From the NCBI GenBank assembly GCA_902604695.1, contig CACKZT010000004.1, positions 1 to 64,000 on the forward strand: DNA of 64,000 nucleotides, in the 5' to 3' direction. This document shows positions 1-22,062 of the stretch, one piece after another; positions within the stretch are counted from its first letter, which is position 1, and each line of letters opens with the position of its first letter. The notes under the pieces were generated by a model. That model was not told the origin of the DNA. It ran no database searches and was given only the letters and a program-made list of their open reading frames with translations. Both the position numbers and the translations under genes were made by a program. The stretch is from an uncultured Pelagibacteraceae bacterium. GTDB lineage: Bacteria > Pseudomonadota > Alphaproteobacteria > Pelagibacterales > Pelagibacteraceae.

Positions 1-271
1 AACTAAAAAATTGATTGAGATTACAAATATTTATGAAAATACCAAAAATTATGAAATGGCTCTAGAAATGCTGAAACCAAAGGTTTTTTGGAAGGATAAA
101 CCAGTTTTTTTGGAGCAATTAACTAAATGGAATGGCTATGAATTAAGTAAAGTTCTTGAAATAGTCTCAAAGACAGAACTTTTGATGAAAAAAAATTCTA
201 ATATAAAGAATGAAGTGATTATCAAGAACTTACTAGTAGATATATGCTGCAAGACATTTAATCGCGTTTAA
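1..271 (+). CDS. holA: DNA polymerase III delta subunit, C-terminal fragment (5' end outside window)
   Basis: Frame stays open to the window edge (TKKLIEITNIYENTKNYEMALEMLKPKVFWKDKPVF...); HolA C-terminal-like; position next to parB matches alphaproteobacterial order. Confidence 0.7.
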   Translation, partial: TKKLIEITNIYENTKNYEMALEMLKPKVFWKDKPVFLEQLTKWNGYELSKVLEIVSKTELLMKKNSNIKNEVIIKNLLVDICCKTFNRV

Positions 272-1115
272 GTTTATCGGAGATTAAACTGAATTGGTCG
301 AGATTTTTATACTCGATTGTAACTTTACCTGAGTTATTCTTTTTATTTTGTATTTTAACTTTTAAACCTAATTGATTTTCTAAAGCTCTTTCAATTTCAA
401 GAATATTTGTATCTGTTGATGATTTGCTTGAATTATTTTTTTTATTTTTAACTAAACTTTCAATAGCTCTAGCACTAAGTTTTTTTGAAACAATTTCTTC
501 GGCAATAGCTGAAGCGTTACCTAAGCCAATTAGTGGTCTAGCTTGACCTGCTGTAATTTGCCCTTCTTTAATCATAGAAATTATGTCTGCAGGCAGAGAA
601 AGAAGACGCATAGTGTTACTTATATGACTACGACTTTTTCCCATTATCTGAGCTATTTTATCTTGATCATATCTATGTTCTTTAAATAAATTTTCATATC
701 CTTTAGCCTCTTCAATGGGGTTTAAATCCTCCCTTTGAATGTTTTCTACTATAGCAACTTCAAGTGCCTCATTATCATTTAAATCCAAAATTCTAATTGG
801 AACTTCATGTAATCCTGCCTTTTGCGCAGCCAACCATCTTCTCTCTCCTGCTATAATTTCATATTTAGTGTTACCAGAATAATTGCTTCTAACTGCTATT
901 GGCTGTATTAGACCATTGAGCTTAATTGATTGGCTTAATTCATTAATTTTACCTTCATCAAAAGTAATTCTAGGTTGGAATTGATTTCTTGATAATTCAC
1001 CTATTAATGCGCTGTTTTCACTAACTTTGGTGGCTTTTTGCGTTTTAGATTGGTTATCATCTCCGAACAAAGCAGATAATCCTTTTCCAAGTCCTTTTCT
1101 TTTTTTATCGATCAT
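258..1115 (-). CDS. parB: Chromosome partitioning protein ParB
   Basis: KRKGLGKGLSALFGD start; GERRWLAAQKAGLHEVPIRI and VENIQREDLNPIEEA ParB/Spo0J motifs. Confidence 0.97.
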   Translation of the reverse strand: MIDKKRKGLGKGLSALFGDDNQSKTQKATKVSENSALIGELSRNQFQPRITFDEGKINELSQSIKLNGLIQPIAVRSNYSGNTKYEIIAGERRWLAAQKAGLHEVPIRILDLNDNEALEVAIVENIQREDLNPIEEAKGYENLFKEHRYDQDKIAQIMGKSRSHISNTMRLLSLPADIISMIKEGQITAGQARPLIGLGNASAIAEEIVSKKLSARAIESLVKNKKNNSSKSSTDTNILEIERALENQLGLKVKIQNKKNNSGKVTIEYKNLDQFSLISDKLKRD

Positions 1116-1918
1116 GCGGCACTTCCAATCCCTTGATTAATAAATTCTTCGGCAAGTTTAAAATACGATCTACTTCCTAAACAATTTTTATCATAGACTA
1201 CGCATGGCATTCCGTATGAAGGAGCTTCGGATAATCTAACATTTCTCGGTATAACAGTCTGATAGACTTTATCCTTGAAATAATTTCTTGCCTCACTATC
1301 TACTTGAGAAGAAAGTTTGTTTCTTTTATCGAACATTGTTAACAAGATACCTCTGATAGAAAGTTTTGGATTTAAATTAACTTTAATTCTATCAATTGTT
1401 TTTACCAATTGGGTTATTCCTTCTAGTGCAAAAAATTCAGTTTGAAGAGGAACCAAAAGTTCATCGGCCGCTACTAGGGACATAATTGTGAGAAGACTCA
1501 AAGATGGGGGACAATCAATTAAAATTGTTTCATATTTATCTAAAATATTGTTTTCTGAACTCCTTAAAATTTCTTTAAGAATAAATGCTCTATTGGAATC
1601 ATTTGCCGTCTCTACTTCAAGTCCAGATAAATTGACATTTGAACTAATTAGGTCTAATCCGCCTATATTGGACTTTTGTATAACTTCTTCGAGTTTAACC
1701 TGTCCTATCAGCAATTTATATATATTTCGATTTTCATCTGCGTTAGACTTTCCTAATCCTGTCGTAGCATTGCCTTGAGGGTCCAAGTCAATAACCAATG
1801 TCTTTTTGCCCTTTTCTGCTAATGCTGCTGCTAAATTAATTACAGTCGTAGTTTTACCAACGCCACCCTTTTGATTAATTACTGATAATATTTTTCTATT
1901 CACTTTTATTAGCATCAA
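1112..1918 (-). CDS. parA: Chromosome partitioning ATPase ParA/Soj
   Basis: Deviant Walker A NQKGGVGKTTTVINLAAALA; DLDPQGNATTGLG. Confidence 0.97.
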   Translation of the reverse strand: MMLIKVNRKILSVINQKGGVGKTTTVINLAAALAEKGKKTLVIDLDPQGNATTGLGKSNADENRNIYKLLIGQVKLEEVIQKSNIGGLDLISSNVNLSGLEVETANDSNRAFILKEILRSSENNILDKYETILIDCPPSLSLLTIMSLVAADELLVPLQTEFFALEGITQLVKTIDRIKVNLNPKLSIRGILLTMFDKRNKLSSQVDSEARNYFKDKVYQTVIPRNVRLSEAPSYGMPCVVYDKNCLGSRSYFKLAEEFINQGIGSAA

Positions 1919-2519
1919 TCAATAAAATTTTTGATTCTTTATCGGTTATGCTATCTACTAATTTATACTCAAATACCTTTTCTTTTAAAGCTTTATTTAC
2001 TTCTTCCTGTGCACTCTTTCCCTTAAGAATTATTATTTTGTGATTTTTTTTAATTTTTTCACGTGAAATTCTCATTATTTCTGGAAGCTTTTTAAAAGCT
2101 CGGCAAACTATGTAATTGGACTCGATATCTTGTCCTTTTAAGTCTCCAACGAATATTTCAGCACTAATATCTAGATCTTTAATCATATTTCTCAAGAATG
2201 ATCCTTTTACTTTAGATTTTTCAAAAAGTTTCACGTGAAAATGAGGGTTTTTGTTGTAAATTGCCAAAACTAAACCTGGAAAACCTGCTCCAGAACCTAA
2301 ATCTGATAGGCTACTATTAGCTGTAAAATCAATAAATTTAACTAACTGGGCTGAATCTAACACATGCCGTTTCCAAATATCTGATTCTGTTGAGGATGAT
2401 ATTAAATTGTAACGTTTATTGAAAGATAAAACGTTAATACAAAACTTATCGAGCTTTTTTATTGATATTGCATCAAATTTTAGGCTTTTAATAAGATAAT
2501 TTATTACTTCATCTCGCAT
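1896..2519 (-). CDS. rsmG: 16S rRNA (guanine527-N7)-methyltransferase RsmG/GidB
   Basis: RHVLDSAQL, SDLGSGAGFPGLVLAI motif; adjacent to mnmG. Confidence 0.95.
   Translation of the reverse strand: MRDEVINYLIKSLKFDAISIKKLDKFCINVLSFNKRYNLISSSTESDIWKRHVLDSAQLVKFIDFTANSSLSDLGSGAGFPGLVLAIYNKNPHFHVKLFEKSKVKGSFLRNMIKDLDISAEIFVGDLKGQDIESNYIVCRAFKKLPEIMRISREKIKKNHKIIILKGKSAQEEVNKALKEKVFEYKLVDSITDKESKILLIDANKSE
2055..2070. promoter_or_regulatory. Putative parS site (TTTTTCACGTGAAATT)
   Basis: 12-bp perfect palindrome TTTCACGTGAAA; 13/16 match to parS consensus TGTTTCACGTGAAACA; close to parAB. Confidence 0.8.
2227..2242. promoter_or_regulatory. Putative parS site (AGTTTCACGTGAAAAT)
   Basis: 12-bp palindrome TTTCACGTGAAA; 13/16 match to parS consensus; second copy 172 bp from the first. 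Confidence 0.8.
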
Positions 2520-19366: not shown

Positions 19367-19950
19367 TTAAGCTCTAAATTTTTAAGATATTCTTTTAAAC
19401 TTTTTATTGGAAGTCCCATAATAGAGTCTTTGTCGCCTTTTATGCTTTCAAAAAGGTCTAAACCGCTCGCTTCTATCTGATAAACACCATAATTTAACAG
19501 TGTTTCAGTCTTTATTTTTTTTAAGTACAGTTTAAGAGATTCGTCCTCTAATTTTTTCATGATTAATTCTGATGAGTCAGTGTAGTTCCAAATCATAGAA
19601 CCATTCTTAGAGATACAAACTGAACTAATTAAATAATGTTTGGATCCGTTAAGCTTTTTTAAGATTTCCAAGGCTTCTTCGCGTGATTTGGGTTTGTTTA
19701 TTAATTTATTGTTTAGAGAGATAACACTATCAGCACCTAGGACTATTTGATTTGGATTTCTTTTGCTTACCTTTATTGCTTTAATTTCAGCTAAATTTTT
19801 TGATATCGTTAAAGGATCTGCTCCAGCTTCAAGCAGTGATTCTTTAGCAAAATCTTCATCAACATTAGAGTGCTCGACTATGCATTCTATATTATTTTTA
19901 ATTAATATTTCTTTTCTTACACCACTTTTTGATGCTAAAATTATTTTCAT
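19363..19950 (-). CDS. maf: Maf/YhdE family nucleotide pyrophosphatase
   Basis: ILASKSGVRKEIL; VLGADSVISLNNKLINKPKSREEALEIL; KGDKDSIMGLPI. Confidence 0.95.
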   Translation of the reverse strand: MKIILASKSGVRKEILIKNNIECIVEHSNVDEDFAKESLLEAGADPLTISKNLAEIKAIKVSKRNPNQIVLGADSVISLNNKLINKPKSREEALEILKKLNGSKHYLISSVCISKNGSMIWNYTDSSELIMKKLEDESLKLYLKKIKTETLLNYGVYQIEASGLDLFESIKGDKDSIMGLPIKSLKEYLKNLELK

Positions 19951-20768
19951 TTATTTTTTTTAATCTCATATATTTTTATTATTGAAGCAGCAGTTTCCTC
20001 AACTGAACGCCTAGTAACATCTATTGTTGGCCAATTATGTTTTTTAAAAAGTTTTTTAGACTCATCAACTTCTTTTTTAATAGATTCTAAATCTGTATAA
20101 TCGGGCAGTCTTGTATCATTCATAATGGCAACTCTATTACGCCTAATATCTGAAATTCTCGATGGATCAGCATATAATCCAACTACACAAGATTTGCTAT
20201 TTCCTTCTTTAATTTTTTCAGGAATTGTTTGTTTCATTACTAGGGGAATATTAATTGTTTTATAACCTCTATTAGCAAGATAAATAGAAGTTGGGGTTTT
20301 ACTTGTTCTGCTCACTCCAAGAAGAACTATATCAGCTTTATCTGAATCATCAGTTTTTTTTCCATCGTCATGAGCCATAGTGAATTGGATTGCTTCAATC
20401 CTTTTATAATAATCTTCGTCTAAAACGTGCTGAGCACTAGGTGTATGTGATGCTTTTTGGTTAAGTAATTTAGAAAAAGTAAGTATTAAATTACCTAAAA
20501 TTCCAAAACATGGGATGTCATTTTCTTCGCTTTTACTAGAAAGGTATTTAGCAAGTTTTGTTTCAACAATTGTATAAAGAATAATAGTATTGGTTGCATT
20601 ATTACATTCTTCAATAATTTTATTTATTTGTTGCTCTGTTCTCACAAAGGCATACTCCTTCTTGTAATATTCAAAGTTTGAGAATTGAGATTTTAGTGAT
20701 AAAAAAATTCTATCTAACGTCTCCCCAGTTGAATCTGATATAAGATATACATTGTATTTTTCGGACAT
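19947..20768 (-). CDS. ppsR: Pyruvate, phosphate dikinase regulatory protein (DUF299/PPSR)
   Basis: VYLISDSTGETLDRIFLS; DIVLLGVSRTSKTPTSIYLANRGYK; RRSVEETAASII. Confidence 0.96.
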   Translation of the reverse strand: MSEKYNVYLISDSTGETLDRIFLSLKSQFSNFEYYKKEYAFVRTEQQINKIIEECNNATNTIILYTIVETKLAKYLSSKSEENDIPCFGILGNLILTFSKLLNQKASHTPSAQHVLDEDYYKRIEAIQFTMAHDDGKKTDDSDKADIVLLGVSRTSKTPTSIYLANRGYKTINIPLVMKQTIPEKIKEGNSKSCVVGLYADPSRISDIRRNRVAIMNDTRLPDYTDLESIKKEVDESKKLFKKHNWPTIDVTRRSVEETAASIIKIYEIKKNK

Positions 20769-21051
20769 AAATCTGTTGATATTGTTTTTATAAGTTTATT
20801 TTGTACAATTTTTTTTTATTTATTTATTAAGTATTAACATTTATTAACAATATTTTTACATTTTATTAGCTGTTGATATAGATAATAATACTTTTACCCA
20901 TGTCTGATCAAACTTTTTAATTTGTTATAAACCTTTATTTTTTTTTATAATAAAAGTGAATAAATTGTGTAAAACTATGTATAAATAGTTATATAAGCAA
21001 TTAACATGTCCTATAGGCAAATAATATACTTATAAATATAAATTAATTATT
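20769..21051. other. oriC: Putative chromosomal replication origin (ppsR/hemE intergenic region)
   Basis: Long AT-rich intergenic gap between divergent ppsR-family and hemE genes, the origin location in Caulobacter-type alphaproteobacteria; DnaA-box-like TTATTAACA (20841-20849), GTATTAACA (20831-20839) and TGTGTAAAA (20966-20974, reverse complement TTTTACACA). Confidence 0.65.
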
Positions 21052-22062
21052 ATGAGCAAGTTAATAAAAGTTTTAATGAATAAAGACTCATCTTGTCTTC
21101 CAATCTGGTTTATGAGACAAGCAGGTAGATATCTTCCAGAATTTAGAAAAATTAGATCAAACAACAAAAATTTCATCAAGTTGTGTTTAAACGCTAAATT
21201 AAGCTCAACAATTACACTTCAACCCATTGATAAATTTGATTTAGATGCAGCAATAATATTTTCAGATATATTAATGGTTCCTTATGCTTTAAATCAAGAG
21301 GTGAATTTTGAAAAAGACAAAGGTCCAATTCTATCTAATTTTAAAATAGATGATTTCTTAAGTTGCGATGCAAGATCATTTAAATTCAAATTACAACCAG
21401 TTTATGACTTAATTTCAATTACCAAAAAAAAATTAAAAAAGGATAAATCTCTTATATGTTTTATTGGAGCACCATGGACACTCATAATCTATATGTTTGG
21501 TTTAAAGAGCGAAGATAACAAACTAAATCTAGATTTGTTGGAAAGAAAAAAAAAGGAAATAAAATTAACACTAGATAAATTAAATGATTATCTTTGCTTA
21601 CATGTTGATAATCAAATGAAATCAGGAGCTGATGTAGTCCAAATTTTTGACTCATGGGCCGGAATGTTACCGGAGGAAAAAATTGATGACTTTTGTTTTG
21701 AACCTAATGCTAAAATTGTGAATTTTTGTAAAAAAAATAATTATCCAGTCATTTGCTTTCCTAAGGGAATTAATAATAATTATAAAAAATTTAATGAAAT
21801 AGTTAAACCAAATGGAATAGGCATAGATTTTAACGTAGACCCTGAATGGATTAGATTTAATCTTAAAGATGTTTGTATTCAAGGTGGGATGAATCCTAGA
21901 ACACTTTTGTTAGATGACGATAGCATATATAGAGAGGCAGAAAAATATATTAAGATATTTAAAGATTATCCCTATATTTTTAATTTAGGACATGGTTTGC
22001 TACCTGAAACAAATCCAGATAAAGTTAAAAAATTAATTAATTTTATTAGAGAGAATAATTAA
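21052..22062 (+). CDS. hemE: Uroporphyrinogen decarboxylase
   Basis: PIWFMRQAGRYLPEFR; IIFSDILMVPYAL; FIGAPWTL; NLGHGLLPETNPD. Confidence 0.98.
   Translation: MSKLIKVLMNKDSSCLPIWFMRQAGRYLPEFRKIRSNNKNFIKLCLNAKLSSTITLQPIDKFDLDAAIIFSDILMVPYALNQEVNFEKDKGPILSNFKIDDFLSCDARSFKFKLQPVYDLISITKKKLKKDKSLICFIGAPWTLIIYMFGLKSEDNKLNLDLLERKKKEIKLTLDKLNDYLCLHVDNQMKSGADVVQIFDSWAGMLPEEKIDDFCFEPNAKIVNFCKKNNYPVICFPKGINNNYKKFNEIVKPNGIGIDFNVDPEWIRFNLKDVCIQGGMNPRTLLLDDDSIYREAEKYIKIFKDYPYIFNLGHGLLPETNPDKVKKLINFIRENN

Follow-up and report, generated by a model that had tools for sequence, protein, structure and literature searches.

The question raised by this locus is whether the short gap between ppsR and hemE is the chromosome replication origin (oriC) of a SAR11 (Pelagibacteraceae) bacterium. 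Few marine bacteria are as abundant as SAR11, and growth estimates based on read depth need the start of its chromosome. In the literature searched, no description of a SAR11 origin sequence was found. The oriC of HTCC1062 was identified manually, with nothing more stated (PMC4033161), and a V-shaped coverage pattern indicating a single origin was reported for SAR11, for which a coordinate was not found (PMC9589681). The window analyzed here is a stretch of 64 kb from a SAR11 draft genome (contig C4); the assembly comprises 815 kb in 21 contigs and is 78.6% complete. The original prediction assigned to the gap an oriC with degenerate DnaA boxes and possible CtrA-like control. Its first part stands on synteny, boxes, and skew, and the gap is very probably the oriC of this bacterium, located at the ancestral alphaproteobacterial position and carrying boxes worn by AT drift. 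The CtrA part was abandoned, as neither an orthologue in 19 SAR11 genomes nor a TTAA-N7-TTAA site in the gap was detected.

The ppsR–hemE gap and its conservation

The putative oriC (20769..21051) is a non-coding gap of 283 bp between the divergent genes ppsR (Kinase-PPPase, formerly DUF299, COG1806; 19947..20768, minus strand) and hemE (uroporphyrinogen decarboxylase; 21052..22062, plus strand). Its GC content of 15.9% is the lowest among all 283-bp stretches of the 64-kb window, which agrees with the initial description of an AT-rich, non-coding gap of approximately 283 bp with divergent flanks. An Rfam search of the gap gave no match up to E = 1. The gene order continues with maf, aroE, coaE, and dnaQ past ppsR, and with hemH, a UPF0093 gene (probable hemJ), and rho past hemE. 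The gene following hemE shares approximately 30–34% identity with the HemH of the window in L015, L017, L019, L020–L026, and L029, and 75–80% in the other SAR11 loci, which suggests that two different ferrochelatase-type genes occupy one post-hemE position among SAR11 loci. At approximately 18.5 kb from the gap, parB (258-1115) and the adjoining parA (1112-1918) span 258..1918 on the minus strand. Near these genes, rsmG contains two parS-like palindromes (2055-2070 and 2227-2242, together 2055..2242) that share the exact TTTCACGTGAAA core, in agreement with the parAB/parS noted at about 18 kb.

A scan with PpsR provided 49 loci, consisting of 28 from Pelagibacteraceae and 21 from other Alphaproteobacteria, and the divergent order of ppsR, gap, and hemE was kept in all of them (28/28 and 21/21). 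The length of the gap in SAR11 ranged from 261 to 297 bp, including the further genera fetched later. Alignment of the gap across relatives, which had been proposed as a check, placed DnaA-type 9-mers at fixed columns over 61 gaps; the conserved blocks of the SAR11 gaps were TGTTaATAA next to ppsR, TTAACATTAATTAACATTATTTTAACA, TGTTgATAAT, TGTATAAAAtATGTATAAA, and TTAACAggaCCTA before hemE. The origins of Caulobacter and Rickettsia had been named as hemE-adjacent precedents, and the published flanks of Cori in Caulobacter crescentus and of the origin in Rickettsia prowazekii are indeed hemE and COG1806 (PMC1914354). These origins also resemble the present gap in being AT-rich intergenic regions with several DnaA boxes (PMC1914354).

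DnaA-type boxes, paired TTAA sites, and the initiator

The boxes were defined by the consensus TTATNMACA, and their column positions were scored with up to one mismatch in SAR11 gaps clustered at 85% identity (n = 61). Box 1 (ATATCAACA; 20774..20782, minus strand) occupies a column at which 51 of the 61 non-redundant gaps possess a box with at most one mismatch. Boxes 2 (GTATTAACA; 20831..20839) and 3 (TTATTAACA; 20841..20849) constitute a tandem pair with 10-bp spacing on the plus strand, and both ATTAACA motifs pointed out at the outset (20833-20839 and 20843-20849) are present there. Box 3 is the only exact TTATNMACA in the gap, and its column holds a box in 38/61 gaps. A weak third tandem repeat (ATTTTTACA; 20852..20860, plus strand) is represented by TTTTAACA in relatives. 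Box 4 (ATATCAACA; 20871..20879, minus strand) has a counterpart in 38 of the 61 gaps, and the site at 20901..20909 (minus strand), where TTATAAACA and similar boxes occur in 23/61, is eroded in this genome. Three further boxes on the minus strand are located at 20955..20963 (TTATTCACT, one mismatch), 20966..20974 (TTTTACACA, identical to the previously noticed TGTGTAAAA, which was found at its predicted place), and 20976..20984 (TTATACATA, box in 29/61 gaps). The hemE-proximal box position (CAATTAACA; 20998..21006, plus strand) is occupied by TTATTCACA or TTATTAACA in several relatives, and its TTAACA at 21001 also fits a −35 element of hemE. Some relatives have a classical box at the same place, namely TTATCCACA at box 1 (L014 and L015) and TTATTCACA at the hemE-proximal box (L068 and L079), and the A-containing boxes are hence read as worn DnaA boxes.

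The occurrence of TTATNMACA summed over 49 SAR11 gaps was 106 against 8.1 ± 3.0 in dinucleotide shuffles, and that of TTATNCACA was 15 against 1.5; the gaps are related in both counts, so that the independent evidence is overstated. In the exact gap of this genome, 11 one-mismatch matches to TTATNMACA were counted against 3.1 ± 1.7 expected, a number reached by 0.05% of the shuffles, and the single exact match is reached by 17% of them. When the 290-bp segments of the 64-kb window were ranked, the gap came first with 12 one-mismatch matches, followed by a segment with 7. The gap of the complete relative G140 contains 4 exact TTATNMACA, and every other 290-bp segment contains at most 2 (1.17 Mb of 1,308,759 bp examined); when one mismatch to either consensus was allowed, several other loci equaled or beat this gap. 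The box strength is modest in the present gap alone and strong across its relatives.

The original prediction also described TTAA half-sites as dense and regarded TTAACATTTATTAAC as resembling a CtrA-type paired TTAA, which raises the alternative that oriC is placed under a CtrA-like regulator through such pairs. The gap does contain TTAACATTTATTAAC at 20834-20848, in which two TTAA are spaced by 6 bp, and TTAA-N7-TTAA summed over 49 related gaps amounts to 60 against 23.6 in shuffles, although many of these gaps are near-identical and kinship was ignored. This excess is unexplained and was not counted as support for CtrA. In this gap, by contrast, no TTAA-N7-TTAA was found, and TTAA is not dense, occurring 12 times against 18.5 expected from shuffles. 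Sequences similar to TTAACATTTATTAAC (up to 2 mismatches) appear at chance level within the window. The TTAA pair of the gap has the wrong spacing and is accounted for by the two tandem DnaA-type boxes with which it coincides (TATTAACA), whose 10-bp spacing is kept in relatives. A CtrA orthologue was not found in 19 SAR11 genomes with a Caulobacter CtrA sequence as the query, and the best match, at 35% identity, would be as expected of other OmpR-family regulators. The CtrA-type TTAA pairs were rejected as regulatory sites since they are not enriched in this gap, and control of this oriC by a CtrA-like regulator is judged extremely unlikely.

The initiator itself, SAR11 DnaA, retains RDHTT and the arginines ahead of it in domain IV. 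RDHTT is preceded by GG in the sister family, whereas SAR11 proper has [ASTC][GN] at these two residues (L234–L262). The sixth base of the box is usually A in SAR11 as opposed to C in the classical box; of the exact boxes, 63/65 in genus g1 are A-type and 16/16 in the outgroups are C-type. At the sixth base, A outnumbers C in shuffles as well, and the change from C to A is hence partly explained by AT drift alone. A joint shift of DnaA (GGRDHTT to [ASTC][GN]RDHTT) and its boxes (TTATNCACA to TTATNAACA) in this CtrA-less lineage is a tentative and rather doubtful idea, which, if true, would mean that initiator specificity at this origin is altered. A direct dependence of the box type on the exchange of G for N ahead of RDHTT was rejected, as TGRDHTT lineages already have TTATNAACA boxes.

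GC skew and the dnaA locus

The chromosome-scale skew of complete relatives was evaluated with a two-breakpoint GC-skew fit, for which approximately 90% of G140 and one third each of G028, G021, and G031 were sampled. The fitted origin was 35 kb (G140), 28 kb (G028), and 4 kb (G021) away from the gap, and the fitted terminus lay opposite. In G031, the best fit was 120–245 kb from the gap, varying with the terminus constraint, and slightly favored the dnaA side; of two fits, one accepted the gap and the other placed it just beyond the cut-off. The cumulative GC-skew minimum of the window was observed at approximately 36 kb, which is approximately 15 kb from the gap. It was set aside as an origin candidate, since skew is noisy at a scale of a few kb, and chromosome-scale fits resolve only tens of kb. 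The skew minimum anticipated at the gap was hence obtained to within 4–35 kb in three of the four complete relatives, while G031 was ambiguous and the local minimum of the window lay elsewhere. The GC-skew shift typical of hemE-type origins is thus present through these three relatives (within 35 kb), with the local minimum of the window at 36 kb.

Many bacteria have their origin at or near dnaA, and if SAR11 did so, the hemE gap would be a relic. The G031 fit slightly prefers this side, and some metagenomic growth tools set the origin at dnaA by convention (PMC7852909). The skew penalty, however, is higher for dnaA than for the gap in G140 (10.4 vs 2.2), G028 (16.2 vs 5.4), and G021 (7.3 vs 0.0), and the dnaA locus of the present genome contains zero TTATNMACA in 4.4 kb. 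Being without boxes and giving a worse skew fit in three of the four genomes, the dnaA locus was rejected, and the probability that it harbors the origin is close to negligible. The dnaA gene is approximately 60–73 kb from the hemE–ppsR gap in the complete SAR11 genomes G140, G028, G031, G032, G048, G139, G021, G020, G022, and G017, so that dnaA-anchored tools would misplace the origin by approximately 5% of the chromosome.

Promoters, unwinding, and the type of origin

Since the flanking genes diverge from the gap, their promoters must sit there, and sigma-70-like pairs do occur, such as TTAACA-18-TATACT upstream of hemE (21001-21030). The gap could then be only a conserved divergent ppsR/hemE promoter region, in which the TTAACA blocks serve as −35 elements and regulator sites. 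The promoter-like matches, however, are barely above those of shuffles (7 vs 4.7 ± 1.8), and promoters leave unexplained the classical boxes of relatives at homologous positions, the top box rank in G140, the skew switch, and the gap length retained after ppsR loss. This loss was encountered in the order's second family: of 12 genomes searched, 11 gave no ppsR match, and the match in the remaining one was marginal. In all six genomes of this family whose hemE locus was fetched (L208–L213), maf faces hemE over a gap of 268–280 bp. The gap has outlived ppsR in this family, which speaks against its being no more than a promoter of ppsR. Two of the six gaps contain a perfect TTATCCACA and one contains TTATACACA; exact TTATNMACA is absent from three, and four have none or only one. 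Runs of CTACTACTACTA were observed directly before hemE in L209 and L210. A gap consisting of promoters only is considered very unlikely, and for the gap as oriC, the promoter and origin functions probably overlap. The hemE promoter probably extends over the hemE-proximal box, and some of the conserved TTAACA blocks would also fit −35 elements.

The AT-rich stretch at 21007..21051 (plus strand) is a candidate for the unwinding stretch. A putative DnaA-trio module, defined as a DnaA box, a spacer of up to 16 bp, and at least three CTA/ATA trios, was detected beside hemE in 27 of the 67 SAR11 gaps scanned; shuffled sequences gave 3.5 and a reverse control gave 3. The signal was strong in genera g8, g2, g4, g5, and g7 and part of the sister family, and weak in genus g1. 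The module was not detected in this window, in which the trios appear degenerate; the stretch holds the likely −10 element of hemE, and the hemE promoter candidate overlaps the place of the relatives' module. The basal unwinding system of Bacillus subtilis has the same succession of box, spacer, and CTA/ATA triplets that is found by hemE in several SAR11 lineages (PMC8287927), although the SAR11 module is putative, weak in the genus of this bacterium, and not detectable in its genome.

We infer that DnaA would bind approximately 7–8 conserved, mostly weak boxes of the TTATNMACA type spread over the gap, with one by ppsR, two or three in tandem at 10-bp intervals, an inverted middle box, a minus-strand tandem group at approximately 20955-20984, and one facing hemE. 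Such helically phased weak boxes may assemble a DnaA oligomer, upon which an AT-rich stretch would melt. The hemE-proximal 45 bp are favored as the melting site, because a box with DnaA-trio repeats is found there in relatives. After melting, replication would proceed bidirectionally, and ParB bound to the parS-like sites 18.5 kb off would move the new origins apart.

The best reading of the gap is an ordinary hemE-type alphaproteobacterial oriC, judged by its sequence features. It adjoins hemE and ppsR, exceeds the genome average in AT content, and carries a DnaA-box cluster, as origins of this type do. The CtrA sites and CtrA protein accompanying most but not all members were not found here. 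Some origins of the hemE type were reported without CtrA sites (PMC1914354), so that the absence of CtrA does not exclude membership. Compared with the Caulobacter/Rickettsia type, neither a CtrA orthologue (19 SAR11 genomes) nor CtrA sites (this gap) were found here; the boxes are mostly TTATNAACA instead of classical ones, and the gap is short and very AT-rich. The predicted origins of Wolbachia, Ehrlichia, and Anaplasma are likewise AT-rich gaps with DnaA boxes (PMC1914354), but these predictions mostly include CtrA sites, and SAR11 proper keeps ppsR. The predicted Wolbachia origin adjoins hemE with a changed partner gene (PMC1914354), similar to the gap of the ppsR-less sister family of SAR11. 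The oriC reading is drawn from the synteny, the clustering of boxes at fixed positions, the genome-wide ranking, the chromosome skew of relatives, and the retention of the gap after ppsR loss, and the location of the origin is well supported by these computations.

An oriC at hemE–ppsR, which is 60–73 kb away from dnaA in the complete genomes examined, would give growth methods a fixed anchor. It would also mean that, with CtrA absent, the ancestral alphaproteobacterial origin survives genome streamlining and AT drift.
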